Shown here piece after piece: positions 24,195 to 63,168 of a DNA stretch of 64,000 nt. The DNA comes from Rhizobium sp. CIAT894 (GTDB lineage Bacteria; Pseudomonadota; Alphaproteobacteria; Rhizobiales; Rhizobiaceae), in contig NZ_CP020950.1 of NCBI RefSeq assembly GCF_000172795.2, positions 124,001 to 188,000 of the forward strand. The letters run 5' to 3'. The translations under genes and the position numbers were made by a program. Every line of letters starts with the position of its first letter. Position 1 is the stretch's first letter. The notes under the pieces were generated by a model. It was not told where the DNA came from, did not search any database, and saw nothing but the letters and a program-made list of their open reading frames with translations.

Positions 24195-24209
24195 ATCAGA
24201 CAATCTGAT
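24195..24209. promoter_or_regulatory. GntR-type operator O1 (gntR1 promoter)
   Basis: ATCAGA-CAA-TCTGAT, a perfect 6-3-6 inverted repeat, lies 67 bp upstream of the first GntR gene. It is the most symmetrical copy of the island motif and suggests autoregulation. Confidence 0.65.
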
Positions 24210-24276
24210 TGAAAGTTCCCCGCGAAGCAGCCATATATTTAGCTCAAATTCATTAGTGCTACGTAGGACATTGATC

Positions 24277-24957
24277 ATGGTAGATGTGGAGCTGCAGGTC
24301 GCTCGGCAAAATGCCTCTCTTCGAGTGCAAGTCGAAGAAAGGCTCAGACAGGCTATTGCGACGGGCAAGTTCAAGCCGGGGCAAAGGCTCGTCGAGCGCG
24401 AGCTTTGCGAAATGATCGGCGTGGGTCGCACGTCCGTCCGTGAAGCGCTTCGGCAGCTTGAGGCAGAGGGATTGATCACAAGCTTCCCCCACAAGGGTCC
24501 AGTTGTCAGTATCATAACCTATGAGGAGGCCGCTCAGCTCTACACCGTCCGCGCGCTGCTCGAGGGGTTTGCTGGTCAGCAGTTCGCCGAAAATGGAACG
24601 GCGGAAGATATTGCCACTTTGCAAGATGCCGTTAGAGAATTCGAAGCGTCGGCGGAAAGCGGCGTGGGACACAGGCTCATCGCTGCCAAAAACGCCTTCT
24701 ATGACTGCTTGATGGATGGCAGCAAAAACGTCTTCGTCAGGCAAATGCTAACATCGCTGCACAACCGGATCAATCTTCTGCGCATGACTTCGATGACACA
24801 ACCGGGGCGCCTCAAACATAGCATTGCAGAAATCAAAGAGATTGCCGAAGCGATCCAAAATCGCAACGGACCCAGGGCTGCGGCCGCTTGTAAGCACCAC
24901 ATTGATATGGCTGCGAAAGTCGCACTCGAGTACCTGCGCAACAACACCTCAGGCTGA
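24277..24957 (+). CDS. GntR/FadR-family (FCD) transcriptional regulator 1
   Basis: 226 residues. The N-terminal winged helix (LVERELCEMIGVGRTSVREA, then LRQLEAEGLIT, ~45-78) is followed by an all-helical FCD ligand-binding domain (~95-220). The ATG at 24277 aligns with its paralogue at 53163, with which it shares the QNASLR start and most of the DNA-binding helix. FCD regulators usually bind short palindromes and release DNA when they bind an organic acid. Twelve copies of such a palindrome lie in this island, one just upstream. Near-identical recognition helices imply the two paralogues share operators. Confidence 0.9.
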   Translation: MVDVELQVARQNASLRVQVEERLRQAIATGKFKPGQRLVERELCEMIGVGRTSVREALRQLEAEGLITSFPHKGPVVSIITYEEAAQLYTVRALLEGFAGQQFAENGTAEDIATLQDAVREFEASAESGVGHRLIAAKNAFYDCLMDGSKNVFVRQMLTSLHNRINLLRMTSMTQPGRLKHSIAEIKEIAEAIQNRNGPRAAAACKHHIDMAAKVALEYLRNNTSG

Positions 24958-24978
24958 TGCCATAAGATTTTCCGAAAA

Positions 24979-24995
24979 TTGACAGATTGTCTGAT
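24979..24995 (+). promoter_or_regulatory. Operator O2 downstream of gntR1
   Basis: TTGACAGATTGTCTGAT about 20 bp after the gntR1 stop. It and O3 share the preceding TTTTCCGA context, which suggests a local duplication. It is about 290 bp from the next start, so its use is unclear. Confidence 0.55.
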
Positions 24996-25185
24996 GCTGT
25001 AGGTGGCCGGGTGTAATCAAATCCTTCCGGCACGGTGCTTTTGACAACGCAACAACCTCTCTGGTGTCCATCGGACGATAAGATGGGTGCTGCTTGCACG
25101 GTCATTTTAAGTGAGGTGATTGAAGAAGCGACAGCAAAATTGGCGTCGTAGCGAGGGCGCGCCGGCCCAAGCATGAATTTTCCGA

Positions 25186-25214
25186 TTGACAGATTGTCTG
25201 ATAGGTCGTTAACT
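25186..25214 (+). promoter_or_regulatory. Operator O3 and promoter of the left catabolic operon
   Basis: TTGACAGATTGTCTGAT, with TTGACA as -35 (25186-25191) and TAACTA (25210-25215) as a possible -10 about 18 bp later. A repressor bound to the palindrome would block RNA polymerase. Confidence 0.6.
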
Positions 25215-25270
25215 ACTCCTCACTAACGGAGGTAGCTGATTGTGCTTGCCTCACATTCGGGAGCGGGACG

Positions 25271-26155
25271 TTGTCACCACGAAAAAATCTGCGCGTCGCC
25301 TTTATTGGTCTCGGCGCAATGGGCGGGCCGATGGCACAACATCTGTTGTCGGCTCAATTCGAAGTCACTGGCTTTGATCTATCGGCCGAGGCTAGGGAAA
25401 GGTTCGCGGCCGTCGGCGGCGTTCCGGCAGAGACGGTAGCGGAAGCATTCAATGGCGCCGATGTTGCGGTTACCATGCTTCCCAACGGCAAGATTGTTCA
25501 AGACGCGCTCTTCAAGGATGGGGCCTGGCAATCCCTGAGTGCTGACGCGCTTGTCATCGACATGAGCTCATCGGCGCCCAATGATACTCGTGAGCTCGCA
25601 GAGCGCTTGCATCAGAAGGGCTTGCGGCTGGTCGATGCTCCCGTGTCAGGCGGAGTGAAGCGAGCCGTCGAAGGCTCTCTTACTATCATGGCAGGCGGTG
25701 CTTCTGACGATATCGATCAAGCTGATCCCATCCTGTGCGCCATGGGCGGCCAGATTTTTAGGACAGGCCCGATCGGCTCAGGGCACGCCATGAAAGCCAT
25801 CAACAATTTCGTATCGGGAGCCGGGGTTCTGGCAGCTATCGAAGGCGTTCTTCTTGGCCGAACGTTTGGTCTCGATCCTAGAACGATCGTCGATATTCTC
25901 AACTCGTCGTCTGGCAAGAACAACGCAACAGAAGTGAAGATGAAGCAGTTCATCCTCTCGGAGACTTTTGGCTCTGGTTTTGCTTTGGGGCTTATGGCGA
26001 AAGACATTAGGATTGCAGCGGACTTGTCGAAGGCGCTCAATCTCCATCTGCCGACATTGGCCGGTACCGCTGATGCCTGGGATGCTGCTCGGCATGCTTT
26101 AGGCCCCGATGTCGACCATACGAAAATTGCGCAGTTCGTGAAAGATCAGGCCTGA
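25271..26155 (+). CDS. Beta-hydroxyacid dehydrogenase (3-hydroxyisobutyrate dehydrogenase/GarR family)
   Basis: 294 residues. N-terminal Rossmann motif IGLGAMGGPMAQHL (~12-25), substrate-binding DAPVSGGVKRAVEGSLTIM and the catalytic-lysine region GSGHAMKAINNFVS define the family. It reversibly oxidises a beta-hydroxy acid to a semialdehyde with NAD(P). A TTG start at 25271 is preceded by GGGAGCGGG. It is the first gene of a nine-gene row ending with a semialdehyde dehydrogenase, so the pair could handle a hydroxyacid-semialdehyde-acid sequence. The substrate cannot be read from sequence. Confidence 0.85.
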   Translation: MSPRKNLRVAFIGLGAMGGPMAQHLLSAQFEVTGFDLSAEARERFAAVGGVPAETVAEAFNGADVAVTMLPNGKIVQDALFKDGAWQSLSADALVIDMSSSAPNDTRELAERLHQKGLRLVDAPVSGGVKRAVEGSLTIMAGGASDDIDQADPILCAMGGQIFRTGPIGSGHAMKAINNFVSGAGVLAAIEGVLLGRTFGLDPRTIVDILNSSSGKNNATEVKMKQFILSETFGSGFALGLMAKDIRIAADLSKALNLHLPTLAGTADAWDAARHALGPDVDHTKIAQFVKDQA

Positions 26156-26188
26156 CCGCGAAAAACTACGCCAAACTGACAGTTGAAA

Positions 26189-26208
26189 ATTGTCTGATAA
26201 TCTGTCAA
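26189..26208 (-). promoter_or_regulatory. Operator O4 between dehydrogenase and CMD-like gene
   Basis: Read on the minus strand, TTGACAGATTATCAGACAA. It is a variant of the island motif in reverse orientation. It lies 25 bp before the next start, giving the CMD-SCP2-hydrolase-transporter row its own control point. Confidence 0.55.
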
Positions 26209-26232
26209 ATATGATGAAGGGAGCGAAACCCA

Positions 26233-26661
26233 ATGGCCACTTTGGACAGGAAAGATAAGGGGTCTAAGGCCGGCGAGCGAACAGCTCCATCGGAGCAGTT
26301 CAAGCGCGGACTTGCTACTCGTCGGCAGGTGATGGGGGACGCTTACGTTGATGCGGCCCTCGGAAAGGCGACCGACTTCACCTGGCCGATGCAGGAACTC
26401 GTCACCGAGTATTGTTGGGACAATATCTGGAACCGACCTGGCCTCGACCGTCGCGCTCGATCGATCCTCAACCTTGGAATGATAGCGGTTTTAAACCGAC
26501 CGCACGAGCTCAGAGGCCACATCCGCGGCGCCATCAACAACGGTGTTACGAAACAGGAGATCCAGGAGATCTTCCTTCAGGTGGCTATCTACGTTGGTGT
26601 GCCAGCAGGCATCGACAGTTTCAGGCATGCCCAGGAAGTATTCACCGAAATGGGCATTTGA
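26233..26661 (+). CDS. Carboxymuconolactone decarboxylase-like protein 1
   Basis: 142 residues of the CMD/AhpD fold (WNRPGLDRRARSILNLGMIA, then VAIYVGVPAGIDSFR), closer to PcaC-type proteins than to AhpD since no CxxC pair is present. PcaC decarboxylates a butenolide lactone in protocatechuate breakdown. Here no other pca genes occur, so the family fold is established while the substrate is not. AAGGGAG precedes the ATG. A close paralogue is at 58238 next to the flavin monooxygenase. Confidence 0.82.
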   Translation: MATLDRKDKGSKAGERTAPSEQFKRGLATRRQVMGDAYVDAALGKATDFTWPMQELVTEYCWDNIWNRPGLDRRARSILNLGMIAVLNRPHELRGHIRGAINNGVTKQEIQEIFLQVAIYVGVPAGIDSFRHAQEVFTEMGI

Positions 26662-26738
26662 GAATGTGCTGTCCCGTGAGGGGGCATGTACAACATGCGC
26701 GGAGTTCTCAGCGCTTATCAACAAGGGAGGAGCCTAAA

Positions 26739-27122
26739 ATGGCGATAGATCTCAAGAAATTCATAGAATTCGTGCGGGAGGATTTCGAGTTCAAGCGCGA
26801 AACTCGTTATCTTAACGGTATATTAAAATGCGATTTCCCTACCCGCAGTGTAGCGCTTCATTTCGAGGACGGTACGCTGCTAAAGGTGGAAGAGGCCGAA
26901 TACGACGACGACAAGTGCACTATCGTCATACGCGGGACCGGTTCACAGTGGGAGGCGCTGCTTCAGCACAAACCCTTGCCGTTTTATCAGTGCTTGCAGT
27001 CATCAAACATCAAGCATGGCCTCTACCTTAGCAGTAACAACGAAACCTTCGCGTATCTGCCTGCTCTCAACCGCATGACCACCCTGATGCGCAATGCCCG
27101 TTCTGAAGGAGCAGCAGCATGA
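26739..27122 (+). CDS. SCP2-like small protein
   Basis: 127 residues starting MAIDLKKFIEFVREDFEFKR, with a predicted mixed alpha-beta fold (VALHFEDGTLLKVEEAEYDD, then CTIVIRGTGSQWEALLQH) like SCP2 sterol-carrier-type domains. AAGGGAGGAG precedes the ATG. The 3' end overlaps the hydrolase gene by four bases. At 53982 a similar domain is fused to the N-terminus of a homologous hydrolase, so the two products very probably act together. The fold call is a judgement from pattern and from that fusion. Confidence 0.6.
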   Translation: MAIDLKKFIEFVREDFEFKRETRYLNGILKCDFPTRSVALHFEDGTLLKVEEAEYDDDKCTIVIRGTGSQWEALLQHKPLPFYQCLQSSNIKHGLYLSSNNETFAYLPALNRMTTLMRNARSEGAAA

Positions 27123-28015
27123 CCAAGTTTGACCCCATTATCGGCCGTTATCTCTATCTCACCGTAGAAGGTATCGAGTACCGCGTCTATTACGAAGAAG
27201 CGGGCCAGGGGATTCCGCTTCTCGTCGGTCATACGGCAGGGTCCGACGGTCGCCAATACCGTCATATGCTTTGCGATTCCGACGTGACGAAAAATTTTCG
27301 CGTCATCGCGTTCGATCTGCCGTATCACGGCAAGTCCCTTCCCCCCTACGGCGTTCGCTGGTGGGAGAAAGAATACAACATGACCAAGAAGTTCATGATG
27401 GACTTCCAGCTCGAACTCTCAAAAGCGCTCGACCTAGACCGCCCCGTTTATTTGGGCAGCTCCATGGGCGGCCATCTCGCGATCGACCTGGCATCGAACT
27501 ATCCGGACAACTTCCGCGCCACGATCTCGGTCGAAGGTGCGTTGCGCTCGGCGGCGGAGTACGTCGACGTCGGTATGGCTGGCATCCGCAGGGAGTTCGA
27601 CAATCCGAACGTCAATCGCACCTCCATCGGTGCGGCGATGATGCTGAATATCTCACCGTACTCGCCAGAAGCGAATGTCCGTGAAATCCAGTGGGAATAC
27701 AGCTGCGGTGGACCGGGAATCTTCGCGGGTGATCTTTATTACTACTACTACGACCACGATGTGTCGCCAGAAGAAGCCAGCAAAATCGATACGTCGAAAT
27801 GTATGCTATACTTCCTCACGGGCGAATACGATCCAAACACGTCCCCGGCCGATACCAAGATTGCTGCAGACCTGGTCAAAGGCTCCAAGTTTTGGACAAT
27901 GGAAAAGCTCGGACATTTTCCCGTTACTGAGGACTATAGCGAGTTCCGGAAGTATCTGTTGCCGATTCTTGAGGAGATCCAGCAGTCATCAGCAGCCCGG
28001 TCTAAGGTTGCCTGA
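27119..28015 (+). CDS. Alpha/beta-hydrolase 1
   Basis: 298 residues. Nucleophile elbow GSSMGG (~116-121), oxyanion region VGHTAGSDGRQYRH, catalytic acid near GEYDPNTSPADT and histidine in KLGHFPVTE. This is a complete catalytic triad for ester, lactone, amide or C-C hydrolysis in the cytoplasm. It overlaps the SCP2-like gene. It shares the TAGADGRQF/TAGSDGRQY signature and GHFP with the fusion protein at 53982, so both likely act on related substrates. Confidence 0.88.
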   Translation: MTKFDPIIGRYLYLTVEGIEYRVYYEEAGQGIPLLVGHTAGSDGRQYRHMLCDSDVTKNFRVIAFDLPYHGKSLPPYGVRWWEKEYNMTKKFMMDFQLELSKALDLDRPVYLGSSMGGHLAIDLASNYPDNFRATISVEGALRSAAEYVDVGMAGIRREFDNPNVNRTSIGAAMMLNISPYSPEANVREIQWEYSCGGPGIFAGDLYYYYYDHDVSPEEASKIDTSKCMLYFLTGEYDPNTSPADTKIAADLVKGSKFWTMEKLGHFPVTEDYSEFRKYLLPILEEIQQSSAARSKVA

Positions 28016-28040
28016 TCCTTTTCTCGGGAGGAGAACTTCA

Positions 28041-29207
28041 ATGAGGTGCATTCTGAATGTCACACTTGGGGCGCTGATCTCGGTTAGCGCCCTGGCGACA
28101 ACCGCTTACGCGGATGGTGTCGATCAGCTACCGGCTACAGAAAAGAAGATCTATGAAACTGTAGATCCGCAGATTCCATTGGGGGCGAGCGCCTACAAAG
28201 ACTTCAAGCCCAAAAAGCTTCCTCCGTGGAAGATCGGCTATGCAAGCAGCTACGCTGGCAACACCTGGCGAGCCGCAGCTCTCGATGCGGTCATGAGCGA
28301 TCTTTTACCGCGATCAAAGGCTGCGGGCCTGGTGTCTGATGTCGTGGTCACCCAGTCGGATCTTAAAGACGCCGTTCAGATCCAGCAGATGCGTCAGATG
28401 GTGGACGAAGGCGTCGATGCAATCATCATCTGCTGCTCGAACGTCACGGCTCTTAATCAGACGATCGAATATGCCTACAAAGCCGGTGTGCCGGTGTTCT
28501 CATTTTCGGGCTACGTGACGTCGCCATACGCCATCAATGGCGCGGCCAATCACGCGCAGGGCGGCGCCGAGATGGCGACGTGGCTGGCGGAAAAAATAGG
28601 AAAGAAGGGCAATATCCTTCTCGTTTCTGGTATTCCCGGTTTCGCTTCTTCGGACAGCTTTGACAAAGCGGCTAAGGAAGCACTTGCTAAGTACCCAGAC
28701 ATAAAGATCGTCGGTGAAGTTGCAGGGAAGTGGACCGACCAGGTGGCCCAGGTCGAAGTTCAGAAGTTTCTTGCGACGAACCCGACGAAGATTGATGGGA
28801 TCCTCACGCAGGGGGCCCAAGAGAACGGCGTTCTCAACGCAATGCTGCAGTCAGGTCGAGACATGATCCCGATTACTCTCGGGGGGGAAGCTTCCGCCGC
28901 GTGCTACTGGCGCAAGAACCCCGAGTTTGTGGACAGGAGTTTCCATATTTGGCCGCCGCGTCGCGAGATGCAACAGATGTGGGAGATCATGCTCCGCACA
29001 TTGGAGGGACAAGGCCCTAAGGTTCAGTCCTTCCTTCGACCCGTCTTGCCTTACACCATCGATGAAGTCCGCGCGGCAATACCAGAAGATTGCGACTTGA
29101 ACTCGACAGACTTCGTGGAGCCCAAGGCGGACGGGTGGTTTCCTGCTGCGATTGCTGCAGACTACTTCGAACGCCCGGCTGATCCCTGGAAGCCTGTGTC
29201 GAAGTGA
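28041..29207 (+). CDS. Periplasmic solute-binding protein 1 (ribose/TorT-like class)
   Basis: 388 residues with a signal peptide cleaved near AYA-DG (~25). It belongs to the type 1 periplasmic binding fold of sugar-class transporters (WKIGYASSYAGNTWRAAAL, then MRQMVDEGVDAIIICCSNVT, then ILLVSGIPGFASSD). The ATG at 28041 has GGGAGGAG upstream. It is followed by the ATPase and two permeases. Two further copies exist at 45682 and 59960 without their own permeases. The Trp- and Cys-rich ligand region (CCSN, GGEASAACYWR) is shared by all three. Confidence 0.9.
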   Translation: MRCILNVTLGALISVSALATTAYADGVDQLPATEKKIYETVDPQIPLGASAYKDFKPKKLPPWKIGYASSYAGNTWRAAALDAVMSDLLPRSKAAGLVSDVVVTQSDLKDAVQIQQMRQMVDEGVDAIIICCSNVTALNQTIEYAYKAGVPVFSFSGYVTSPYAINGAANHAQGGAEMATWLAEKIGKKGNILLVSGIPGFASSDSFDKAAKEALAKYPDIKIVGEVAGKWTDQVAQVEVQKFLATNPTKIDGILTQGAQENGVLNAMLQSGRDMIPITLGGEASAACYWRKNPEFVDRSFHIWPPRREMQQMWEIMLRTLEGQGPKVQSFLRPVLPYTIDEVRAAIPEDCDLNSTDFVEPKADGWFPAAIAADYFERPADPWKPVSK

Positions 29208-29298
29208 AACTGTTCTGCCCGGTGGGTCTTGCCACCGGACAGAAGTTTCTCTTGTGGGAGGACCGCCTCGCGCGGCCGTTGGGATTAGAGGATCTCCG

Positions 29299-30852
29299 AT
29301 GCAAAACCAAACTACGATCAAGTTGATCAATGTTGCCAAGTCTTTCGGCGAGACTAAGGCCTTAAAGAAGTGTGATTTTGAAGCCCGGGCCGGAGAAGTG
29401 CACGCCATCGTCGGAGAGAATGGAAGTGGCAAAAGCACGATGGCGAAGATCATGTCTGGAGTGTTGCACCCAGATTCCGGGAGCGTTTCGGTCCTTGGAG
29501 AAGAGATTTCGACTCCGACTGACGCCAAGCGCATCGGGCTGACAACGATCTTCCAGGAAGTGCTGGTGGCCGACGAGGCCAGTGTATTGGAAAACCTGTA
29601 TGTCGGGCGCGACGGCATCTTCCGCTCGCAGGGCGGCAGTGGTCGGCGTACCGAGGCTGAGGAGATCCTGAAACGCCTCGTCGGCAAGCCCGTGGATCTC
29701 GATCAGAACGTTGGGGCATTGCCTCTGAGCGTCAAGCAATGGATAGTTATTGCGCGAGCGGTCTTGCGCAGGCCGAAGGTCCTCATCCTCGATGAATCGT
29801 CTGCGGCATTAGACCTCGATTCCACGATCCGCCTCCACGAGGAAATTGATCGTCTCCGTAGGGAAGGTGCGACCGTGCTGATCGTAACGCATCGGATCGC
29901 TGAACTTGTCCGCATCGCCGATCGAGCCACGATCCTTCGCGACGGCGTCACCATTGGTACGCTCGAGAAGCATGAAATAACTGAAGAGAACCTGCTTTCA
30001 ATGATGACGCCCGCGGACCGAAACGCAAGCGACGCGAAGGCGTACGAATCAAAGCAAGTAGGCGCCGCCGCGCCGGCCGTGGTAGCGGTAAGAGACCTCG
30101 TTACTCACAGCGCGGCAGCGCCCTTCGATTTCGATCTACCGAAAGGAGCGATCATCGGTGTTGCAGGACTCGACGGGCAGGGGCAGGACGCTTTCGTACG
30201 CGCCGTTGCGGGTATCATCCAGCCTTTTGGTGGTAATGTCCAAGTCTGGTCATCCAGCACCGAGAGAATGAAAAAGGTCGCATCGCTCGAAGACGCTGCC
30301 AAAGCAGGAATCTCGTATATTTCCGGCGACCGCAAGCGTGAAGGTATCTTCCCTCAGCAGAGCATCTTCGAAAATCTTGCCATCGGCGTCTATCGCAAGA
30401 ACCTCGGTCCTCTTGGTATAATCAATAAGGCCGGCCTCAAACCCATGTTCAAACGCGAGGTGGATCGGCTCCGGATTAAGATTGGAAGTCCGGCGAACAA
30501 GATCACCTCACTGTCGGGCGGAAATCAGCAAAAAGTTTTGATCGGCCGTGCCTTTGCAAACGAACCGTCCGTCATCGTCCTTAACGATCCCGCTCGCGGT
30601 GTCGACCTCGGAACGAAGCGCGATCTCTACCGCGAACTGCGCCTGTTCACGGAGAAGGGTGGCAGCGTGATTTATCTATCAAGCGAAATCGAAGAGTTCA
30701 TCGGCTTTGCGGACCGCGTCGACGTCTTCTTTGCTGGAAGGCTTTTCCGGTCGCTAGCGGGCGAGGACATAGCGGAAGAGCCAATCTTGGCCGCAATGTT
30801 TGGAAAATCGCCAAACGCCTCCATCGAGTTCGATCTGGAAAGGACTGCATGA
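29299..30852 (+). CDS. ABC transporter ATPase, RbsA-type double-domain
   Basis: 517 residues with two ABC domains. The first has Walker A GENGSGKST (39-47) and Walker B VLILDESSAALD. The second has the degenerate Walker A GLDGQGQDAF and a strong signature LSGGNQQK, as in RbsA/MglA importers. The ATG at 29299 is chosen since homology begins there. Its stop overlaps the first permease. It energises uptake for one or more of the three binding proteins. Confidence 0.92.
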   Translation: MQNQTTIKLINVAKSFGETKALKKCDFEARAGEVHAIVGENGSGKSTMAKIMSGVLHPDSGSVSVLGEEISTPTDAKRIGLTTIFQEVLVADEASVLENLYVGRDGIFRSQGGSGRRTEAEEILKRLVGKPVDLDQNVGALPLSVKQWIVIARAVLRRPKVLILDESSAALDLDSTIRLHEEIDRLRREGATVLIVTHRIAELVRIADRATILRDGVTIGTLEKHEITEENLLSMMTPADRNASDAKAYESKQVGAAAPAVVAVRDLVTHSAAAPFDFDLPKGAIIGVAGLDGQGQDAFVRAVAGIIQPFGGNVQVWSSSTERMKKVASLEDAAKAGISYISGDRKREGIFPQQSIFENLAIGVYRKNLGPLGIINKAGLKPMFKREVDRLRIKIGSPANKITSLSGGNQQKVLIGRAFANEPSVIVLNDPARGVDLGTKRDLYRELRLFTEKGGSVIYLSSEIEEFIGFADRVDVFFAGRLFRSLAGEDIAEEPILAAMFGKSPNASIEFDLERTA

Positions 30853-31823
30853 TGTCTGGAATCGCATTCCGTCAAATCACCCAGGACCGTTCCCTCTTCG
30901 TGCCGGCCGGCCTCTTCATTGTCCTTTTGGTCGCCGTTGCCCTACGCGGACACGGGCTATTCACGAACAACGGCCTCGCAGGTGCAATCCTTGTCGCCAC
31001 GCCCTTGATTCTAACGGCGCTTGCCCTCACCCCCATTGTCATGGCGGGTCGTGGAGCAGTGGACCTTTCAGTTGGCCCCTTGATGGGGTTCATCAACGTT
31101 ACCCTTATTACCTGGCTTGTGGGTAACGGAATTACCAACCCTATCGCAGTGATAGTATGGGCAGTCGGCCTGGGAGCGGCATTCCAGCTACTCCAGGCGC
31201 TGGTTATCATTTATGTGCGTGTCGCTCCGATAATCGTTACGCTGTCGGGTTTTCTTGTCCTCTCCGGGTTGAACCTGATGGTGATGTCCCGACCGGGTGG
31301 AGTCGCGCCCGACTGGATGCTTAGCTGGGGGGCGGGGACCGACATCATGTCACCTGTTTTGCTGTTGCTGGTTGCAGCGTATGCATTATGGCTCCTTCTC
31401 AGGGGGACTATGTTTTACCGCAACCTTCGCATGACGGGTGCGGATGAGCGCATGGCGTATACGAGCGGCGTTCGAGTGGACGCAGTCCGCATCATCGCCC
31501 ACGTTGTTGGTGGAGCATTCGCTGGACTTGCCGCCCTCAGCTACACGGCGCTGATCTCCTCTGGTGATCCGACGCAGGGCAGCACCTACACCCTTCAGGC
31601 TGTTACGGCCCTGGTTCTCGGAGGTGCGAGCCTCTCCGGTGGTCGTGGTGGAGCACTTGGATCTACGCTTGGCGCGATCAACATGTTCCTCATCTCCTAT
31701 CTCCTCTCCACCTTCAACTTCGGCACGGTTTCGGGGTTCGTTACCCAGATGGCATTCGGCTTAATCCTCGTCGGATCACTTCTCGTGAACGTCTTTGTCA
31801 TCAGTCGCCGCGCGGTTGTGTAA
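30849..31823 (+). CDS. ABC transporter permease 1, RbsC-type
   Basis: 324 residues with about nine hydrophobic segments. Conserved RbsC features include VMAGRGAVDLSVGPLMGFIN and VTALVLGGASLSGGRGGALG. The latter contains the EAA-like coupling region that contacts the ATPase. It pairs with the next gene to form a heterodimeric channel in the inner membrane. Confidence 0.9.
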   Translation: MMSGIAFRQITQDRSLFVPAGLFIVLLVAVALRGHGLFTNNGLAGAILVATPLILTALALTPIVMAGRGAVDLSVGPLMGFINVTLITWLVGNGITNPIAVIVWAVGLGAAFQLLQALVIIYVRVAPIIVTLSGFLVLSGLNLMVMSRPGGVAPDWMLSWGAGTDIMSPVLLLLVAAYALWLLLRGTMFYRNLRMTGADERMAYTSGVRVDAVRIIAHVVGGAFAGLAALSYTALISSGDPTQGSTYTLQAVTALVLGGASLSGGRGGALGSTLGAINMFLISYLLSTFNFGTVSGFVTQMAFGLILVGSLLVNVFVISRRAVV

Positions 31824-31834
31824 GGAGCAAGATA

Positions 31835-32854: not shown

Positions 32855-32877
32855 TCAATGCATAGAAAGGAAGATCC

Positions 32878-41116: not shown

Positions 41117-41145
41117 TTGACAGATTGTCTGATATACGTTAATGC
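41117..41145 (+). promoter_or_regulatory. Operator O5 with near-ideal promoter, no gene downstream
   Basis: TTGACA (41117-41122), 17 bp and TAATGC (41140-41145). The spacer holds the full TTGACAGATTGTCTGAT motif. The next credible start is almost 1 kb away, past a second operator, so it may drive a short RNA. Confidence 0.55.
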
Positions 41146-41868: not shown

Positions 41869-41899
41869 TTGACAGATTGTCGGACAAAAATTTTACTAT
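41869..41899 (+). promoter_or_regulatory. Operator O6 and promoter of the degenerate SDR gene
   Basis: TTGACAGATTGTCGGACAA, one base off the motif, with TACTAT (41894-41899) as a possible -10. It precedes the SDR-like gene by ~130-200 bp. Confidence 0.5.
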
Positions 41900-50150: not shown

Positions 50151-50173
50151 TTGACAGATTATCATACAATCTG
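50151..50173 (+). promoter_or_regulatory. Operator O7 of the MBL-ADH-MBL operon
   Basis: TTGACAGATTATCATACAAT followed by CTG: a full TTGACAGAT half and a second ACAATCTG half. It lies 39 bp upstream of the chosen start of the first hydrolase. Confidence 0.6.
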
Positions 50174-50211
50174 CCAAAAATGTCGCCAAGCACCTGATGG
50201 GAGGAAAATCA

Positions 50212-51108: not shown

Positions 51109-51120
51109 GGAATTTCAAAG

Positions 51121-53077: not shown

Positions 53078-53094
53078 CAGACAATCGGGTTGTC
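53078..53094. promoter_or_regulatory. Operator O8 of gntR2
   Basis: CAGACAATCGGGTTGTC holds GACAA-N5-TTGTC, a variant of the island motif, 68 bp upstream of the second GntR start. It suggests auto- or cross-regulation. Confidence 0.45.
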
Positions 53095-53885: not shown

Positions 53886-53915
53886 TTGACAGATTGTCTG
53901 AAAATCTGCTTACCT
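53886..53915 (+). promoter_or_regulatory. Operator O9 and promoter of the fused hydrolase
   Basis: TTGACAGATTGTCTGAAAAT with TTGACA as -35 (53886-53891) and TTACCT 18 bp later as -10. About 70-95 bp upstream of the start at 53982. Confidence 0.65.
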
Positions 53916-56762: not shown

Positions 56763-57530
56763 TCACTTGACCAGGTGGTTTCCGATCGAGGAGCCGCCAT
56801 CGACCGTCAGAATGCTACCGGTCGCGAACCTCGAACGATCGGACGCAAGAAAAAGCATTGCTTCAGCAATCTCTTCAGCTGTCCCCATCCGATCCATGAC
56901 GGCACGGGCGTTGAAATCGCTGCGAAGCTTCGCGGGGTCCTTCGCTTCGGCGAAGATTTTCGTGAAGTAAGGAGAGTCGATGGTCCCTGGAGCGACCGCG
57001 TTGACACGAATTCCCTCTTTCGCATGATCCATGGCCATCGCGCGCGTCAGCGAAGATATTGCTCCTTTCGATGCTACGTAGGCAGTCCTGTCCGCGATTG
57101 CTGAGGTTGCGGTGTAGGAAGTCGTATTGATGATCGAACCTCCGCCGTTCCGTCGCATAACAGGAATGACGTACTTTGAGCAAAGGAAGATCCCTTTGAC
57201 GTTTACGGACATAATCCGGTCCCAAGTTTCTTCAGGAATGGTCACCACATTCCCCGTCGTTCCGAACCCGGCATTATTGACGAGCACGTCGACCCGGCCC
57301 CACTTTGCGGTCGTCTTCTCAACCATGCTTTCCGCGTCCTTGGCGGACGAGACGTCGACGCGAACACCGAAAGCCTTCGAGCCGATCTCGTTCGCCACAC
57401 GAATCGCGGCGTCTTCATTGACATCAGCAACAACCACATAGGCGCCGTTCTTTGCGAAAAGCTCGGCGGTCGCACGACCAATGCCGCTGCCGCCCCCTGT
57501 GACGATACAAACCCTTTGATCCAGATCCAT
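56763..57530 (-). CDS. Short-chain dehydrogenase/reductase, complete active site
   Basis: 255 residues from the ATG at 57530, which has GGAG upstream; longer in-frame starts lack one. Cofactor motif TGGGSGIGRA, NNAG, catalytic Ser in NTTSYTATSA and YVASK, and the C-terminal TVDGGSS are all canonical. The acidic ADVN after beta-2 points to NAD over NADP. It diverges from the flavin-reductase operon and shares its double-operator intergenic region. Confidence 0.92.
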   Translation of the reverse strand: MDLDQRVCIVTGGGSGIGRATAELFAKNGAYVVVADVNEDAAIRVANEIGSKAFGVRVDVSSAKDAESMVEKTTAKWGRVDVLVNNAGFGTTGNVVTIPEETWDRIMSVNVKGIFLCSKYVIPVMRRNGGGSIINTTSYTATSAIADRTAYVASKGAISSLTRAMAMDHAKEGIRVNAVAPGTIDSPYFTKIFAEAKDPAKLRSDFNARAVMDRMGTAEEIAEAMLFLASDRSRFATGSILTVDGGSSIGNHLVK

Positions 57531-57572
57531 CGACCATCTCCTCATTTTTGGGTGCCTTAGAAGACATTTTAG

Positions 57573-57587
57573 CAGACAATCTGTCAA
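57573..57587 (-). promoter_or_regulatory. Operator O10 (SDR promoter side)
   Basis: CAGACAATCTGTCAA on the plus strand, i.e. TTGACAGATTGTCTG reading toward the SDR gene. Placed 19 bp from O11, so one repressor complex could silence both divergent promoters. Confidence 0.65.
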
Positions 57588-57601
57588 TTGTGAAAATCCG
57601 G

Positions 57602-57632
57602 TTGACAGATTGTCTGCTGATCTGTTTATCTA
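57602..57632 (+). promoter_or_regulatory. Operator O11 and promoter of the flavin monooxygenase operon
   Basis: TTGACA (57602-57607) within TTGACAGATTGTCTGCTGAT and TATCTA (57627-57632) 19 bp later. The gene start is 33 bp further on. Confidence 0.65.
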
Positions 57633-57664: not shown

Positions 57665-58174
57665 ATGGCCGATACCAGCACTGAGGCGCAGTTGGCTTTT
57701 AAGGCAGCTATGCGTCGGTTCACATCAACCATCTGCTTGATCACGACCGAACTCAACGGGGTCCGTCATGGCATGGCCGCCACCGCGGTCCAGTCGGTTA
57801 CCGCGGACCCACCAACTGTTCTTGTCTGCATCAACCAATCGGCTTCGGTGAATCAGCCTTTGAAGATCTCCGGGAAGTTCGCCGTGAACATGCTGCATCT
57901 TTCACATGCCGGTCTTGTGCCGCTGTTCAGTGGGCAATTGAAGGGTGAAGAGCGCTTTCATTACGGCGAGTGGCTGTCTCTCGACGGCATGCCGGTCCTG
58001 TCCGATGCGCAGGCGGCGTTTGTCTGCAAGCTAAAAGATGTCGTTCACGTTGGAACGCATGATGTTGTGCTCGGAGAAGTGCTCGAAGCACGGTTCATCG
58101 AGTCAATCGCGCCGCTTCTCTACGAAAACGGTCAACTCGTCAGGTCGTCGTCCATCAGTGGATCGGCCGCATAG
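57665..58174 (+). CDS. Flavin reductase (HpaC/RutF-type), partner of the monooxygenase
   Basis: 169 residues of the flavin-reductase-like fold (FTSTICLITTELNGVRHGMA, TAVQSVTADPPTVLVCINQS, then KFAVNMLHLSH). These proteins reduce FMN or FAD with NAD(P)H and pass the free reduced flavin to a two-component monooxygenase. That monooxygenase is encoded two genes downstream. GGGAGGA precedes the ATG. Confidence 0.88.
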   Translation: MADTSTEAQLAFKAAMRRFTSTICLITTELNGVRHGMAATAVQSVTADPPTVLVCINQSASVNQPLKISGKFAVNMLHLSHAGLVPLFSGQLKGEERFHYGEWLSLDGMPVLSDAQAAFVCKLKDVVHVGTHDVVLGEVLEARFIESIAPLLYENGQLVRSSSISGSAA

Positions 58175-58237
58175 TAGGTGGCTTTAACCACCAATCACAT
58201 CACTCATCGAAAGCCCAAGGGCGGCAAGGAGAAAAGC

Positions 58238-58654
58238 GTGAGCAATATGGCACCCGCAAGAGAAATTCATGGACGTGAAGTCACAGAGCGCTTTGAGCGC
58301 GGACTAAAGACCCGGCGCGAAGTCTTGGGGGGGGCCTATGTTGATGCGTCGGTCAGCAAAGCCACCGACTTCAATTGGCCGATGCAAACCCTCGTCACGG
58401 AATACTGCTGGGACGCGATTTGGAATCGGCCGGGCCTGGAGCGCAAGCAGCGCAGCATCCTCAATCTCGGGATGATTTCGGCCCTCAATCGTCCGCATGA
58501 GCTGAAACTGCATGTTCGCGGAGCAATCAACAACGGTCTTACCAAAGAGGAAATTCGGGAGGTTTTCCTCCAGGTTTCGATTTACTGCGGTGTTCCTGCG
58601 GCCATCGACAGCTTCCGCGTGGCAGCGGAAGTTTTCGACGAGATGGGCATCTAG
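58238..58654 (+). CDS. Carboxymuconolactone decarboxylase-like protein 2
   Basis: 138 residues from a GTG at 58238 with AAGGAG just upstream. It shares most of its sequence with the copy at 26233 (YCWDAIWNRPGLERKQRSIL, then GVPAAIDSFR). No CxxC pair. Sitting between the flavin reductase and the monooxygenase, it likely acts on an intermediate of the same pathway. The two copies lie in the two arms of the island. Confidence 0.82.
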   Translation: MSNMAPAREIHGREVTERFERGLKTRREVLGGAYVDASVSKATDFNWPMQTLVTEYCWDAIWNRPGLERKQRSILNLGMISALNRPHELKLHVRGAINNGLTKEEIREVFLQVSIYCGVPAAIDSFRVAAEVFDEMGI

Positions 58655-58714
58655 TTATTCAACGCATTTGAGTGGGCTGAGCATCATCCGTTGCCAGCCC
58701 GAGGAGGGACTACA

Positions 58715-59836
58715 GTGACCGCACAAGACGATTTCCGCGCTGCCGGAAACCCAATGTTCAATGATAACAAGCTCAAGCTCGGCGTATTTGGCACGAATTG
58801 CTCGAATGCATGCGCGATTACGCTCGCTGAGACAACGTTCGAACCTACCTTCGACCACAACGTCGAGATTGCAAAGAAGCTTGAGGCAGCCGGTTGGGAA
58901 TGCATGGTGCCGATTGCACGCTGGCGTGGTTTTGGCGGTCCTTCAAACTTCAATGGCGTGAACATGGATACGTTCACCTGGGCGGCCGCTCTCGCGGCGG
59001 TCACCACGAAGCTCCAGTTCTTCTCAACGACCCACATTCCGACGCTAAACCCGATTGTTGCAACCAAGATGGCGACAACAATCGATCACATCTCGAAGGG
59101 TCGATACGGCCTCAATCTCGTTACCGGCTGGTTCACTCCCGAAATGGAAATGTTCGGAGTTCCTATGATGGAGCACGACACCCGCTATGAATACGCCACC
59201 GAATGGATGGATATCGTCGAGACGCTCTGGAAACGCAATGGCGTTACCTTCGAAGGCGAGTTCCTCAAAGTCAAAGACGCCTTCAGTGAACCCAAACCCT
59301 ACAACAAGGCGGGTCGCCCGCTCCTGATCTGCGCCGGCGCCTCGGGCAAGGGACTGCATTTCACCGCCAAGTTCTGCGACTTCAACTTCGGCTTCATGCA
59401 AGACATGGAATCCGGCGCTGCCTGGGTCAAAAAGGTGAAGGACCTGGCGCGTACTGAATATAACCGTGATCTTGGCACATTCACAGCTTGCCCCGTTATC
59501 GTTCGCGAAACGGAGAAGGAAGCAAAGGAATACTACGACTACTACGTCAACCAGAAGGGTGACTGGGAGGCATGCGAGAACATCTGTGAAGTTCTGCAGG
59601 TGCAATCTCAAAACCATTCTGCCGAAATGTATCAAAAATTCAAGGAACGCTTCGTCGCTGGCTGGGGTGGATACCCGATCGTCGGCAATCCAGAACAAGT
59701 CGCCGACAAGCTCGTGGATCTCAGCAATACAGGCGTCAACGGCGCCTTGCTGACAATGGTCGATTACAACGAGGAACTTCCCTTCTTTAACGACCGTGTC
59801 ATGCCGCTGCTCAAGCAAGCCGGTCTGCGCAACTGA
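58715..59836 (+). CDS. Luciferase-type flavin-dependent monooxygenase, RutA/RcaE-like
   Basis: 373 residues of the bacterial-luciferase (TIM-barrel) family. The N-terminal NPMFNDNKLKLGVFGTNCSN, FFSTTHIPTLNPIVATKMAT and NLVTGWFTPEMEMFGV are typical of the RutA branch. RutA opens uracil using a flavin N5-oxide and RcaE degrades riboflavin; related two-component enzymes act in pyridine-type breakdown. The GTG at 58715 follows GAGGAGG. It depends on FMNH2 from the reductase in the same operon. The likely job is the committing oxygenation of the imported compound; the substrate is not known. Confidence 0.85.
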   Translation: MTAQDDFRAAGNPMFNDNKLKLGVFGTNCSNACAITLAETTFEPTFDHNVEIAKKLEAAGWECMVPIARWRGFGGPSNFNGVNMDTFTWAAALAAVTTKLQFFSTTHIPTLNPIVATKMATTIDHISKGRYGLNLVTGWFTPEMEMFGVPMMEHDTRYEYATEWMDIVETLWKRNGVTFEGEFLKVKDAFSEPKPYNKAGRPLLICAGASGKGLHFTAKFCDFNFGFMQDMESGAAWVKKVKDLARTEYNRDLGTFTACPVIVRETEKEAKEYYDYYVNQKGDWEACENICEVLQVQSQNHSAEMYQKFKERFVAGWGGYPIVGNPEQVADKLVDLSNTGVNGALLTMVDYNEELPFFNDRVMPLLKQAGLRN

Positions 59837-59959
59837 ACCAGTCCTCGGGACGGCGATTGCCGTCCCGACACGAACTCTGCCAGATTCTGGCAGGATTTTC
59901 GCGGCTGGCGGCCAAAGGGGCCGGCGGTTGAGCGGAACCACAAGGGGAGGAGGCCCTGA

Positions 59960-61129
59960 ATGCTGAAGAAAATCGTTGCAGCGCTTTTTACGCTGTCGAG
60001 CCTTTATCACATGAACGGCGTGGCGAAGGCTGACGGCCTCGATTCGTTGCCGCCGGACCAAAAGGCGCTTTACGAGAATATCGATCCCGCCATTCCGCTC
60101 GGGGGGACGGTGTACAAGGATTTTGTTCCAAAACGTCCACCGCCGTGGAAAATTGGTTATGCATCCACATATGCCGGTAATACCTGGCGCGCGAACATCC
60201 TGGACGAATTCACCAACGTATTGCTTCCGAAATATAAGGAAGCAGGCCTAGTCTCTGATCTTATCGTCACGCAGTCTGACCTCAAAGACGCTGTCCAAAT
60301 CCAGCAGATGCGGCAGATGGTTGACGACGGTGTTGATGCGATCGTCATTTGCTGCTCGAACATTACCGCACTTAACAAGACCATAGAGTATGCTCATTCG
60401 AAAGGCGTGCCAGTCTTCTCAGTCTCGGGCTATGTCACATCACCCTACGCAATCAATGCCACAGAGAATAACACCGACGGTGGCTACAAGGCTGCTGAAT
60501 GGCTTGCCAAGGAAATCGGTGAAAAAGGCAACGTCCTGATGGTATCGGGCATCCCCGGTTTCGCATCATCGGACAGCTTCGACATCGGCGCGAAGAACGC
60601 GTTCGATAAATTCCCCGGTATCAAAATTGTAGGCACGATAGCTGGCAAATGGACCGACCAGGTCGCCCAGGTTGAGGTTCAGAAGTTTCTTGCCACCAAT
60701 CTTGCTGAGGTTAATGGCATTCTCGTTCAGTCCGCTTCAGAAAACGGTGTCGTGAACGCAGTACAGCAATCCGGCCGCGACATGATGCCTATCGTGCTCG
60801 GGGGTGAGGCTTCCGCAGCCTGCTACTGGCGTAAGAACCCTGATTTCATAAGCAAGAGCTTCCATTTCTGGCCGCCGCGGTCTGATGCCCGCCTTGTGTG
60901 GGACGTCATGATGCGAACGCTCGAAGGCCAGGGACCAAAGATCCAGTCGATTCTTCGTCCTGCGCTTCCTTACACCATTGATGACGTGAAGGAAGTGCTG
61001 AAGGAAGATTGCGATCCCAATTCTACGGATTGGATCGAGCCGAAGAACAACGGCTGGTGGCCTGCAGACGTCGCTGCAAACTACTTCGAACGTCCTGAAG
61101 ATCCGTTAGCTTGGCGGCCGAAGAAGTAA
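59960..61129 (+). CDS. Periplasmic solute-binding protein 3
   Basis: 389 residues with a signal peptide ending near AKA-DG (~24). It is closely similar to binding protein 1, including WKIGYASTYAGNTWRANILD, ICCSNITALN and EWLAKEIGEKGNVLMVSGIP. It ends the reductase-monooxygenase operon but has no permeases of its own. AGGGGAGGAGG lies ahead of the ATG. It probably feeds the transporter at 29.3-32.9 kb, tying the two arms together. Confidence 0.9.
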   Translation: MLKKIVAALFTLSSLYHMNGVAKADGLDSLPPDQKALYENIDPAIPLGGTVYKDFVPKRPPPWKIGYASTYAGNTWRANILDEFTNVLLPKYKEAGLVSDLIVTQSDLKDAVQIQQMRQMVDDGVDAIVICCSNITALNKTIEYAHSKGVPVFSVSGYVTSPYAINATENNTDGGYKAAEWLAKEIGEKGNVLMVSGIPGFASSDSFDIGAKNAFDKFPGIKIVGTIAGKWTDQVAQVEVQKFLATNLAEVNGILVQSASENGVVNAVQQSGRDMMPIVLGGEASAACYWRKNPDFISKSFHFWPPRSDARLVWDVMMRTLEGQGPKIQSILRPALPYTIDDVKEVLKEDCDPNSTDWIEPKNNGWWPADVAANYFERPEDPLAWRPKK

Positions 61130-61158
61130 TGAATGTTCTCCGGAAGGAGACCTCCCAG

Positions 61159-61193
61159 CCTCCCGCGTCGGTTTCTATAATCGGCGCGGGAGG
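61159..61193 (+). terminator. Stem-loop after solute-binding protein 3
   Basis: CCTCCCGCG (61159-61167) and CGCGGGAGG (61185-61193) form a 9-bp stem with a 17-nt loop, 30 bp after the stop. No long U-run. It separates the operon from the aminotransferase. Confidence 0.45.
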
Positions 61194-61218
61194 TATCTGC
61201 GATTTGATTGGAAATAGT

Positions 61219-62424
61219 GTGCTGGACTTTCATAGAATTCAACGTTTGCCGCCTTATGTTTTCGAACAGGTCAACCGTTTGAAAGCAAGCGCGCGAGCGG
61301 GCGGCGCCGATATCATCGATCTCGGCATGGGAAACCCCGACCTTCCCACTCCCCAGTCGATCGTCGACAAGCTGTGCGAGGTCGTCCAGGATCCGCGCAC
61401 CCACCGTTATTCCTCCTCCAAGGGCATTCCGGGGCTGCGCCGCGCCCAGGCCGCCTATTATGCCCGCCGTTTCGGCGTCAAGCTCAACCCGGATACCCAG
61501 GTGGTCGCCACCTTGGGCTCCAAGGAAGGCTTTGCCAACATGGCGCAGGCAATCACCGCGCCCGGCGACGTCATCCTCTGCCCGAACCCGACCTATCCGA
61601 TCCACGCCTTCGGTTTCCTGATGGCGGGCGGCGTGATCCGCTCGATGTCGGTGGAGCCGGACGAAAGCTTTTTCCCGCCGCTTGAGCGGGCGGTCCGGCA
61701 TTCGATCCCGAAGCCCCTGGCGCTGATCCTCAACTACCCCTCGAACCCGACGGCCCTTGTCGCGACGCTCGATTTCTACAAGGACGTCATTGCCTTCGCC
61801 AAGAAGCACGACATCATCGTGCTTTCCGACCTTGCCTATTCGGAAATCTATTTCGACGGCGCCCCGCCGCCGTCGGTTCTCGAAGTGCCCGGCGCAATCG
61901 ACGTGACGGTCGAGTTCACCTCGATGTCGAAGACCTTCTCCATGCCCGGCTGGCGCATGGGTTTTGCCGTCGGCAACGAGCGGCTGATCGCGGCGCTCAC
62001 CCGCGTCAAGTCCTACCTCGATTACGGTGCTTTCACGCCGATCCAGGTGGCGGCGACGCATGCGCTGAACGGCGACGGCTCCGACATTGCTGAGGTTCGC
62101 AACGTCTATAAACGCCGCCGCGACGTCATGGTCGAAAGCTTCGGCAAGGCCGGCTTCGATGTGCCGCCGCCGGCTGCGACGATGTTCGCCTGGGCGAAGA
62201 TCCCTGAAAAGTTCCGTCATCTCGGTTCGCTTGAGTTTTCCAAGCTCTTGGTCGAGAAGGCCGACGTCGCCGTTGCACCGGGTATCGGCTTCGGCGAAAT
62301 GGGCGACGACTACGTCCGTCTGGCGCTCGTCGAGAACGAACACCGCATCCGCCAGGCTGCGCGCAACATCAAACGCTGGCTTAGCGGCGACGAGAAATTT
62401 GAAATCAACGTAATGAATCAGTGA
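61219..62424 (+). CDS. Class I/II aminotransferase, AlaC-like
   Basis: 401 residues from a GTG at 61219, where family similarity starts (DFHRIQRLPPYVFEQVNRLK). PLP-lysine region in TSMSKTFSMPGWRMGF, NYPSNPTA and the final arginine region are intact. Similar proteins are chromosomal alanine/aspartate-type aminotransferases in rhizobia. Codon use is much more GC-rich and uniform than in the neighbours. The gene follows a stem-loop without an obvious promoter, so it looks like a copy of a core gene moved here. It may supply amino transfer to the pathway or be a passenger. Confidence 0.8.
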   Translation: MLDFHRIQRLPPYVFEQVNRLKASARAGGADIIDLGMGNPDLPTPQSIVDKLCEVVQDPRTHRYSSSKGIPGLRRAQAAYYARRFGVKLNPDTQVVATLGSKEGFANMAQAITAPGDVILCPNPTYPIHAFGFLMAGGVIRSMSVEPDESFFPPLERAVRHSIPKPLALILNYPSNPTALVATLDFYKDVIAFAKKHDIIVLSDLAYSEIYFDGAPPPSVLEVPGAIDVTVEFTSMSKTFSMPGWRMGFAVGNERLIAALTRVKSYLDYGAFTPIQVAATHALNGDGSDIAEVRNVYKRRRDVMVESFGKAGFDVPPPAATMFAWAKIPEKFRHLGSLEFSKLLVEKADVAVAPGIGFGEMGDDYVRLALVENEHRIRQAARNIKRWLSGDEKFEINVMNQ

Positions 62425-62435
62425 AAGGATACCCG

Positions 62436-62834
62436 ATGCCAATCTTCGGATCATGCCAATGCAAAGCCGTTACGTACCAGGTTCAGGAAATTGATGGACC
62501 CATGTGGAATTGCTTCTGTCAAACATGCCGGAAGTCACACGCCGCTGATCACAATACCGCTGCGAAGGTGAAAAGCGAGCACTTCAAGATCCTTACAGGC
62601 CAAGATACGCTTCATAGCTTCGAATCGACGCCTGGAAAGCTGCGGTGGTTTTGTTCGGTATGTGGCTCGCACGTTTATGCGGAGCGGCCGGCCAGCCCGG
62701 AGCTCAAAGTCGTTAGAGCCGGCACGTTCGATACCGATCCTGGAAGTGTGCCGATGTCAAACGTATGGGTATCGCATGCGAAACCTTGGCTCGCCCATGA
62801 TCCATCGAAGGCAAGCTCACCAGAGTTCCCGTAA
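62436..62834 (+). CDS. GFA/CENP-V domain zinc protein
   Basis: 132 residues with the zinc ligands of the GFA family: GSCQCKAVTYQV, CFCQTCRKSH and WFCSVCGSHVY. The founding member binds glutathione and is linked to formaldehyde, while most members have no proven role. AAAGGA precedes the ATG at 62436, 12 bp after the aminotransferase stop. If the pathway releases a one-carbon aldehyde, this protein could help detoxify it; this is speculation. Confidence 0.82.
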   Translation: MPIFGSCQCKAVTYQVQEIDGPMWNCFCQTCRKSHAADHNTAAKVKSEHFKILTGQDTLHSFESTPGKLRWFCSVCGSHVYAERPASPELKVVRAGTFDTDPGSVPMSNVWVSHAKPWLAHDPSKASSPEFP

Positions 62835-63155
62835 GTGACCGGGATACTACCTGTCGTAACTGAGGTGGAGCCACGGCGACCGTATATCAAGCGGCAACGC
62901 CTCATTCCGTGTCCAGGAGGTTCTAACGCAAACGTGCTGGGTCGGTAAAAGCGGCAGGGATTGCAGACAATAGGTTCGCTTGCACGGCGAGCCCACCCAT
63001 TGAGAGAATAAAGTCGTACGAGACAGAAGACTTCTGCGAAGCAATCCAGCCTTCGAGGTTCGGAAATTACGGGTTGTGAAGGCTCAGGACACCGCAGGAC
63101 TATTTTTGCCCCCACGGGTCCTCAACGACCTCCATTGCGATGTGAGTGAAAATTG
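62835..63155. other. Intergenic region, no FMN riboswitch seen
   Basis: About 320 bp without a recognisable gene. I looked for the conserved RFN elements upstream of the flavin genes and found none. Confidence 0.4.
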
Positions 63156-63168
63156 TAAGATTGTCTTA
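63156..63168 (+). promoter_or_regulatory. Degenerate operator O12 upstream of the flavin-supply genes
   Basis: TAAGA-TTG-TCTTA, a perfect 5-3-5 repeat that keeps the AGATTGTCT core of the island motif, 26 bp before the FMN reductase start. Confidence 0.45.

Follow-up and report, generated by a model that had tools for sequence, protein, structure and literature searches.

A putative FCD-type GntR operator shared by catabolic, transport and regulator genes of a Rhizobium plasmid island

Genes and operator sites of the island

The DNA stretch analysed here, referred to as the window, comprises 64,000 nucleotides of Rhizobium sp. CIAT894 (contig NZ_CP020950.1; C4:124001-188000 of a 6.66-Mb genome) and carries a catabolic island in which a recurrent palindromic operator precedes two paralogous gntR genes, gntR1 and gntR2, as well as the lead genes of several operons. 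Window positions 24103-34365 were 99.7-100% identical among 15 plasmid records listed, nearly all of them bean-nodule Rhizobium plasmids, and the same island genes are annotated on p42d of R. etli CFN 42; the home replicon is thus a p42d-type symbiotic plasmid. The left half of the window was identified as a type III secretion system (T3SS) region from the annotation of CIAT 652 pB, where hrcN, hrcQ, hrcR, hrcT and hrcU are annotated in the stretch matching the left part of the window. Operators and genes were compared across nine replicons, namely the home symbiotic plasmid (pSym) and those of R744, GR64, CIAT 899, A. salinitolerans, CCGE531, NXT3, A. tumefaciens CFBP6626 and Shinella PSBB067.

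The island opens with gntR1 (24277-24957, + strand), which encodes an FCD-type GntR regulator of 226 amino acids (Pfam GntR 1.7e-20, FCD 7.8e-26), its start being set from the CFN 42 annotation and by alignment. An open reading frame (ORF) of 284 amino acids from 24103 is over-extended, the CFN 42 start corresponding to 24277, and the gntR1 operator (24196-24211, - strand; placed by matrix and comparison) therefore lies upstream of the gene and not within it, its centre 79 bp before the start codon. The gene for a 3-hydroxyisobutyrate-dehydrogenase-like enzyme (HIBADH; 25271-26155, +; assigned by Pfam, with 2-hydroxymethyl glutarate dehydrogenase as best solved match) is preceded by a distal site at 24979-24994 (+; pattern and matrix) and by an operator lying over its -35 TTGACA at 25186-25206 (+), found in all eight replicons having the gene. 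A near-perfect operator, ATTGTCTGATAAT (26182-26208, -; 7/7 replicons), precedes CMD1 and the genes behind it (26233-34365, +), which encode a hypothetical protein, an alpha/beta hydrolase, a CUT2-type ABC importer and succinate-semialdehyde dehydrogenase (SSADH), as assigned from Pfam and the annotation of orthologous plasmids. Between the SSADH and MCP1 genes lies an RVT_1 reverse-transcriptase fragment (34901-35653, -; 2.4e-26), probably debris of a group II intron.

The next operator, at 41117-41137 (+; pattern and matrix), has no conserved gene directly behind it and stands about 0.9 kb before an SDR ORF; in CFN 42 an IS66 insertion follows some 45 bp downstream. A pattern match at 41869-41889 (+) precedes the SDR gene, MCP2 and a binding-protein gene, and a counterpart stands ahead of the matching SDR gene of A. 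salinitolerans (L067:47727). Further along, two overlapping matches of one palindrome (50151-50177, +; 6/6 replicons) stand before genes for an MBL hydrolase, a Zn-alcohol dehydrogenase (Zn-ADH) and an MBL lactonase-like protein (50197-53042, +; Pfam), for which NCBIfam lactonase models were matched only below their cut-offs.

The paralogous FCD-type regulator gene gntR2 (53163-53852, +; Pfam) is preceded by a variant operator, CAGACAATCGGGTTGTC (53078-53094, +), which is letter-identical upstream of gntR2 in four other replicons (L064, L067, L069, L072) and was kept as a site for that reason, although its matrix score was below 10. Behind gntR2 an operator (53886-53906, +; 6/6 replicons) precedes a fused alpha/beta hydrolase gene (53982-55211, +; Pfam), whose N-terminal extension of about 150 residues matched no Pfam family at E 0.001. 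Two divergent operators follow, centred 41 bp apart. One (57566-57587, -; 5/6 replicons) faces an SDR oxidoreductase gene (56763-57530, -; Pfam), the single miss being a gene cut at the locus edge with the site itself present at L063:49312; the other (57602-57623, +; 6/6 replicons) faces genes for a flavin reductase, CMD2, a RutA-like LLM monooxygenase with RutA as best solved match, a binding protein, an aminotransferase and a GFA protein (57665-62834, +; Pfam and annotation). A weaker operator (63153-63173, +), which has a counterpart at the corresponding position in S. fredii NXT3 (L072:17964), precedes a gene for an NAD(P)H FMN reductase (63195-63713, +; annotation) and then ribBA (annotation, Pfam), which runs past the window.

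Operator counts within and beyond the window

The initial annotation had listed twelve sites as one GntR regulon uniting the whole island, and all twelve were found, to within a few bases, where it placed them. The 9-base core AGATTGTCT occurs in eight exact copies in the window against a shuffle mean of 0.38, with none of 100 shuffles reaching eight, and TTGACAGATTGTCTGA at up to three mismatches gave 11 matches where 0.44 were expected (0/100 shuffles). That most sites read TTGACAGATTGTCTGA proved a little strong, the match being exact at four of the twelve (24979, 25186, 41117, 53886) and with one mismatch at three further sites (41869, 57573, 57602). A weight matrix trained on the window sites themselves (12 rows, with both arms of 50151 included and 53078 left out) returned 13 matches on both strands at a score of at least 15 in 24001-64000, which correspond to 11 distinct sites; 60 dinucleotide shuffles averaged 0.07. 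Since the matrix matches are its training sites, leave-one-out scoring was used, and the 12 rows scored from 14 to 36. The T3SS half was said to be free of sites, and at threshold 15 it is (no match in 1-24000; shuffle mean 0.03); at a threshold of 10 there was one match (15400, score 11.5) against a shuffle mean of 0.28.

Real as they are, the twelve sites form an incomplete list, equivalents lying outside the window at C4:190405, 191394, 191474 and 115390. To the right these include the operators of a Zn-alcohol dehydrogenase gene (C4:190405) and of teuBAC1C2 (C4:191474); to the left lies that of a GH3 gene (C4:115390, 340 bp before the start), which sits about 33 kb from gntR1 in the home plasmid. 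The regulon as first drawn was thus too narrow in omitting teu, Zn-ADH and GH3, and too wide by gene in taking in the whole island, as no matrix site lies in the 500 bp upstream of MCP1, MCP2, SBP2 or EAL. The GH3 operator stands 332-350 bp before the start codon in the five replicons that showed gene and operator together (L032:9390-9743), which suggests a long conserved leader.

A similar motif density elsewhere in the genome would have spoken against a regulon, and this was examined by pattern search, not by matrix scan. At up to one mismatch, 9/9 matches in the whole genome fell within C4:115390-191489, a block of 76 kb making up about 1% of the genome, and at up to two mismatches 13/14 did so; the regulon reading was thus not refuted. 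Three mismatches added 22 places genome-wide, two in the block and 20 outside. With a pattern for the full palindrome, all three places at one mismatch were in the island, and of two places at two mismatches one was in the island and the other at C3:247485; three mismatches gave 18 places, six in the block and 12 outside. The C3:247485 site (AGAATGTCAAACAATCT) is the sole palindrome match at up to two mismatches outside C4. Among 394 genomes of the family, 30 had a match at up to one mismatch, and six of these, the home genome included, had seven to nine matches.

The comparison of replicons separated two classes of gene, a division by gene order made in this analysis, with CMD1 counted as a lead gene because of its site. 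With each gene in each replicon taken as one case, the ten lead genes had a matrix site in the upstream 500 bp in 49 of 50 cases in the eight other replicons, which are not independent, R744, GR64 and CIAT 899 being close to one another. With the home replicon the count was 59/60 (home 10/10, seven home sites having trained the matrix), or 52/53 in all if CMD1 is omitted. In contrast, twenty other island genes had a site in one of 103 cases in the eight other replicons, and in 1/123 with the home replicon (0/20). The AraC-family gene (1/1, its site at 305 bp) and both gntR rows were placed in neither count. Distances from operator to gene were near-constant, at 69-72 bp for HIBADH in seven replicons (41 in Shinella) and 107-123 bp for teuB. 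The cluster is contiguous in R744, GR64 and CIAT 899; the plasmids of A. salinitolerans and CCGE531 carry parts of it at widely separated places. The operator, its map across replicons, its conservation and its linkage to GntR genes are observed features of these sequences, and by sequence comparison the operator regulon is an old one.

The LLM gene was found at 90% identity or more in 49 plasmid records; among the 22 listed, 20 were labelled Phaseolus as host or source, and the remaining two (CFN 42 and A. salinitolerans) had no host label. By this gene and threshold, the island occurs on symbiotic and other plasmids of bean isolates of Rhizobium and Sinorhizobium, and on one Agrobacterium plasmid.

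Operator architecture and the GntR regulators

On balance, sequence comparison describes the operator as an odd palindrome of about 21 bp, ACAGATTRTC-W-GAYAATCTGT, of the FCD/FadR type with the core TTGTC-n-GACAA. The consensus is that of the relatives, whose right arm is easier to recognise; pairing of the arms at the central W reached 65% in 38 selected sites of relatives, against 58% at an axis 4 bp to the left. Relative to the AGA..TCT axis implied by the core quoted in the initial annotation, the symmetry axis is shifted rightwards by 4 bp, and the 16-mer given there represents the left arm plus the -35 box and not the whole palindrome. As a dimer axis, CAGA-nnn-TCTG was disfavoured by exact-match counts in distant homologues, which favour TTGTC-n-GACAA. 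Exact TTGTCnGACAA was present in 5/27 loci with a GntR less than 60% identical, against at most one for each of 19 permuted half-sites, and with up to one mismatch within 300 bp upstream of gntR it was present in 5/27 distant loci against at most one in controls. Three positions from the axis, more than 90% of sites have a G on one side and usually no complement to it on the other; because this position is rarely paired, one half-site is regarded as systematically weak.

A study of the FadR subfamily (PMC4494728) describes TKGT/ACMA boxes with 3-nt spacing and palindromes flanked by weaker extra half-site boxes. The core found here has GT and AC 3 nt apart in the same manner, with the caveats of an ATAA half and a close second axis, and by analogy its outer TGACA boxes may be such extra half-sites.

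Both regulators scored above the gathering thresholds of the GntR and FCD domains (27 and 24.3), with 72.9 and 91.4 bits for GntR1 and 71.4 and 94.5 bits for GntR2. They are 72% identical overall, with 84% identity in residues 14-77 against 70% in the rest, from which it follows that the ligand domains have drifted more. Residues 31-77 differ at four positions, none of them in the recognition helix GVGRTSVREALRQLEAEG. As in FCD regulons, the regulator genes themselves carry the operator: in each of the nine replicons the CAGACAATC core lies 72-95 bp upstream of gntR genes, and in seven other replicons it is 77-88 bp before gntR1, a full matrix match before gntR1 is present only in the home plasmid and A. 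tumefaciens CFBP6626, and the gntR2-type upstream site is identical in five replicons, the home replicon included. Thus gntR1 and gntR2 are probably autoregulated.

The linkage was followed in the best 80 of 203 loci from a search with a GntR alignment. At up to one mismatch CAGATTGTCTGA was present in 58/58 loci with a GntR 60-100% identical (L079-L136), many of them near-identical, with 201 matches across the 58 against one in one shuffle per locus. On A. rubi pW2_73_1 (L073, 7813) a GntR 53% identical to GntR1, with the operator nearby, lies beside a branched-chain-type ABC importer, a flavin reductase and an amidase, and this locus is perhaps a separate catabolic regulon using the same operator. 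For the initial annotation, comparative evidence thus supports one operator common to dispersed operons and, with binding itself a prediction, a GntR repressor as its reader.

Exudate uptake and a proposed repressor circuit

The genes teuB, teuA, teuC1 and teuC2 are annotated in CIAT 652 pB; the home locus (L031) has the same domain order, and the home teuB is identical to that of CIAT 652 over 372 residues. Known as an exudate-uptake operon, teuBAC1C2 appears here as one member of a larger regulon, beginning at about C4:191603 with the operator centred 116 bp before teuB. The distance from operator to teuB is 120 bp in R. tropici CIAT 899, and in R. leucaenae USDA 9039 12 of 13 matches at up to two mismatches fall in a single 40-kb block that also holds teuB, with one match immediately ahead of that gene. 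USDA 9039 is presumably the same strain as CFN 299. A table of PMC8416774 names CFN 299 as the teu strain. Elsewhere, with a 1998 paper (Rosenblueth) as the cited source, teu has been described as an ABC transporter that root exudates of bean and Macroptilium induce (PMC3557214) and as exudate-uptake genes required for nodulation competitiveness (PMC4125696), and an RNA-seq study reports that ABC genes earlier found induced in R. tropici rise in bean exudate (PMC8581550). Among the literature matches listed, in the passages they offered, none linked teu to a GntR-type regulator, and the R. etli transcriptional-network literature, in the portions returned for the terms searched, held no passage on teu or a p42d GntR.

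Judged by its genes, the island may degrade a beta-glucoside: the aglycone would be oxidised and then monooxygenated by an LLM enzyme dependent on FMNH2, after which lactonase and hydrolase steps would open it and its carbon would drain to succinate. Trigonelline, pyridoxine-glucoside and uracil were considered as substrates. The domain set behind these candidates (LLM, flavin reductase, hydrolase and SSADH, with GMC and lactonase-like genes in Shinella) is suggestive, but the only substrate-naming cut-off reached was that of SSADH (TIGR01780), and the nearest solved relatives of the pathway enzymes are distant. The combination of LLM monooxygenase, flavin reductase and hydrolase resembles the RutA/RutF and Trg pathways, of which Trg also includes an SSADH. 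The island differs in its extra CMD, lactonase-like, HIBADH and GH3 genes, and its LLM protein falls far short of the RutA equivalog (196 bits against a cut-off of 498, NCBIfam).

Placement of the operator over the promoter, as proposed in the initial annotation, also finds comparative support. Among 13 non-regulator sites examined, 10 begin with TTGACA or TTGACT and 12 read in the direction of the gene. The HIBADH operators form a pair 207 bp apart, and the divergent sites at 57.6 kb, centred 41 bp apart in the home plasmid, are 41-43 bp apart in R744, A. salinitolerans and NXT3; as 41 bp makes four helical turns, this spacing suits cooperative binding.

Taken together, the island is very probably part of a dispersed catabolic regulon of two paralogous FCD GntR repressors sharing one operator and derepressed by a bean-exudate compound or its metabolite. 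Binding, repression, the ligand, the enzyme roles and the use of the same sites by both paralogues are what we infer, induction by a bean-derived ligand because teu is reported to be exudate-induced. GntR1 and GntR2 dimers would each bind the palindrome over the -35 box (TTGACA) and the -35/-10 spacer, and the bound repressor would exclude RNA polymerase. A compound of bean root exudate, or its metabolite, would bind the FCD domains and release the repressors. Derepression would then allow uptake by teu and the second, CUT2-type importer, deglycosylation by GH3, oxidation of alcohols, monooxygenation by a flavin-dependent system with an FMN supply of its own, and lactone and ester hydrolysis, with carbon flowing to succinate via SSADH.

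Several observations weigh against this regulon and against the palindrome on which it rests. On the 14 home sites the two axes score almost alike (0.51 for W against 0.53 for CAGA-nnn-TCTG), and in relatives the latter is only a little lower (0.58 against 0.65). Only the TTGTC half-site is strongly conserved, its partner usually being ATAA and not ACAA, and position +/-3 pairs in only 7% of the 14 home and 16% of the 38 relative sites. With one mismatch allowed anywhere in the 27 distant loci, TTGTC gave 15 matches and one control half-site 16; exact TTGTCnGACAA was not found in loci L132-L136, and the longer core CAGATTGTCTG, at one mismatch, was present in just 3/22 distant loci (L137-L158; GntR below 60%). 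The -10 boxes are weak, some best spacers being 15 or 19 in a comparison run without a control; the strong site at 41117 has no clear gene behind it; and no counterpart of the 41869 site scoring at least 10 was found in R744 or GR64. Genome-wide, both patterns are unspecific at three mismatches (20/22 and 12/18 places outside the block). The other 24 of the 394 family genomes have one or two matches each (a total of 25, against two for the reversed control pattern), and for 23 of these genomes no homologue of GntR1 or GntR2 was found within about 1.5 kb of the fetched match, a weak check on 3-kb pieces, as L051, L056 and L058, from genomes with site clusters, likewise showed no GntR in such pieces.

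The paralogues need not share the operator. It may be read by GntR1 only, GntR2 having drifted to a ligand-sensing or anti-repressor role, and the GntR tree fits this, since the GntR of Shinella PSBB067 and that of A. tumefaciens CFBP6626, each with one such GntR place on the searched record (E 1e-30) and the same operator, fall in the GntR1 clade (support 100/99). GntR2 rows did not form one resolved clade in that tree, from which the NXT3 row, short and with a wrong start, was dropped. Such a division of roles is rather unlikely, as GntR2 has an identical recognition helix and a conserved site before its own gene, and in R744 and CIAT 899 the changes that set the second GntR apart from the first in the DNA-reading region are conservative. 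It is very improbable that the true reader of the operator is the AraC-family regulator (39791-40825) or an unseen global factor, with the gntR genes as mere targets. The AraC gene does belong to the island, the 41117 site stands 305 bp from the start of that gene and reads away from it, and both gntR genes have sites, but no AraC homologue was found by tblastn (E 1e-12) in stretches of 6 to 50 kb (L065, L068, L132-L136) that all keep the core. Moreover, the core fits the FCD consensus, whereas AraC proteins usually bind direct repeats.

Spread of the repeats by copying, as IS ends, small mobile repeats or duplicated modules and not as selected operators, could draw on the reverse-transcriptase debris of the island, on the IS elements annotated in its CFN 42 counterpart, and on the paralogous pairs of gntR, CMD, abhydrolase and binding-protein genes. 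Against copying stand the near-constant distances before lead genes in nine replicons, the near absence of sites before other genes, and a palindrome core that is exact in loci of distant relatives, Paraburkholderia among them, so that this explanation is extremely improbable.

An FCD regulon of a catabolic island with two paralogous GntR repressors would be a new case of a known kind. The FCD/FadR regulons of PMC4494728 likewise combine GntR and FCD domains with an A/T-rich palindrome, TKGT/ACMA boxes 3 nt apart and flanking half-sites; in contrast, a single operator here seems to serve two paralogues along about 76 kb, with T3SS genes and mobile debris between, and one half-site is systematically weaker. 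PDB 6z74 matches the GntR profile at 8.6e-14, and we take this structure to be Atu1419. Atu1419 (VanR group; PMC7797058) is an FCD repressor of a plant-compound catabolic island, the hydroxycinnamate island of A. fabrum, whose palindromes lie over the -10 box or between -35 and -10, with paired sites about 190 bp apart and a loop shown; the HIBADH pair spacing of 207 bp resembles this 190-bp loop. The Atu1419 palindrome is ATGTATACAT and not TTGTC-n-GACAA, its island is a different one and the sequence likeness is distant.

With the same DNA-reading surface and diverged FCD domains, the two repressors of the proposed regulon might form a bean-specific circuit that integrates two signals on one operator language, such as the glycoside of the exudate and an intermediate formed later, a lactone or an amide; we regard this tentative idea as doubtful. 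If true, such a circuit would keep a horizontally mobile catabolic island coherent despite its splitting by T3SS genes, IS elements and transfer from symbiotic to accessory plasmids or back. As the operator precedes the exudate-induced teu genes, it is a likely handle on how bean-nodulating bacteria sense their host, and it provides a candidate regulator pair, a pathway gene list and a reporter site for finding the bean compound.

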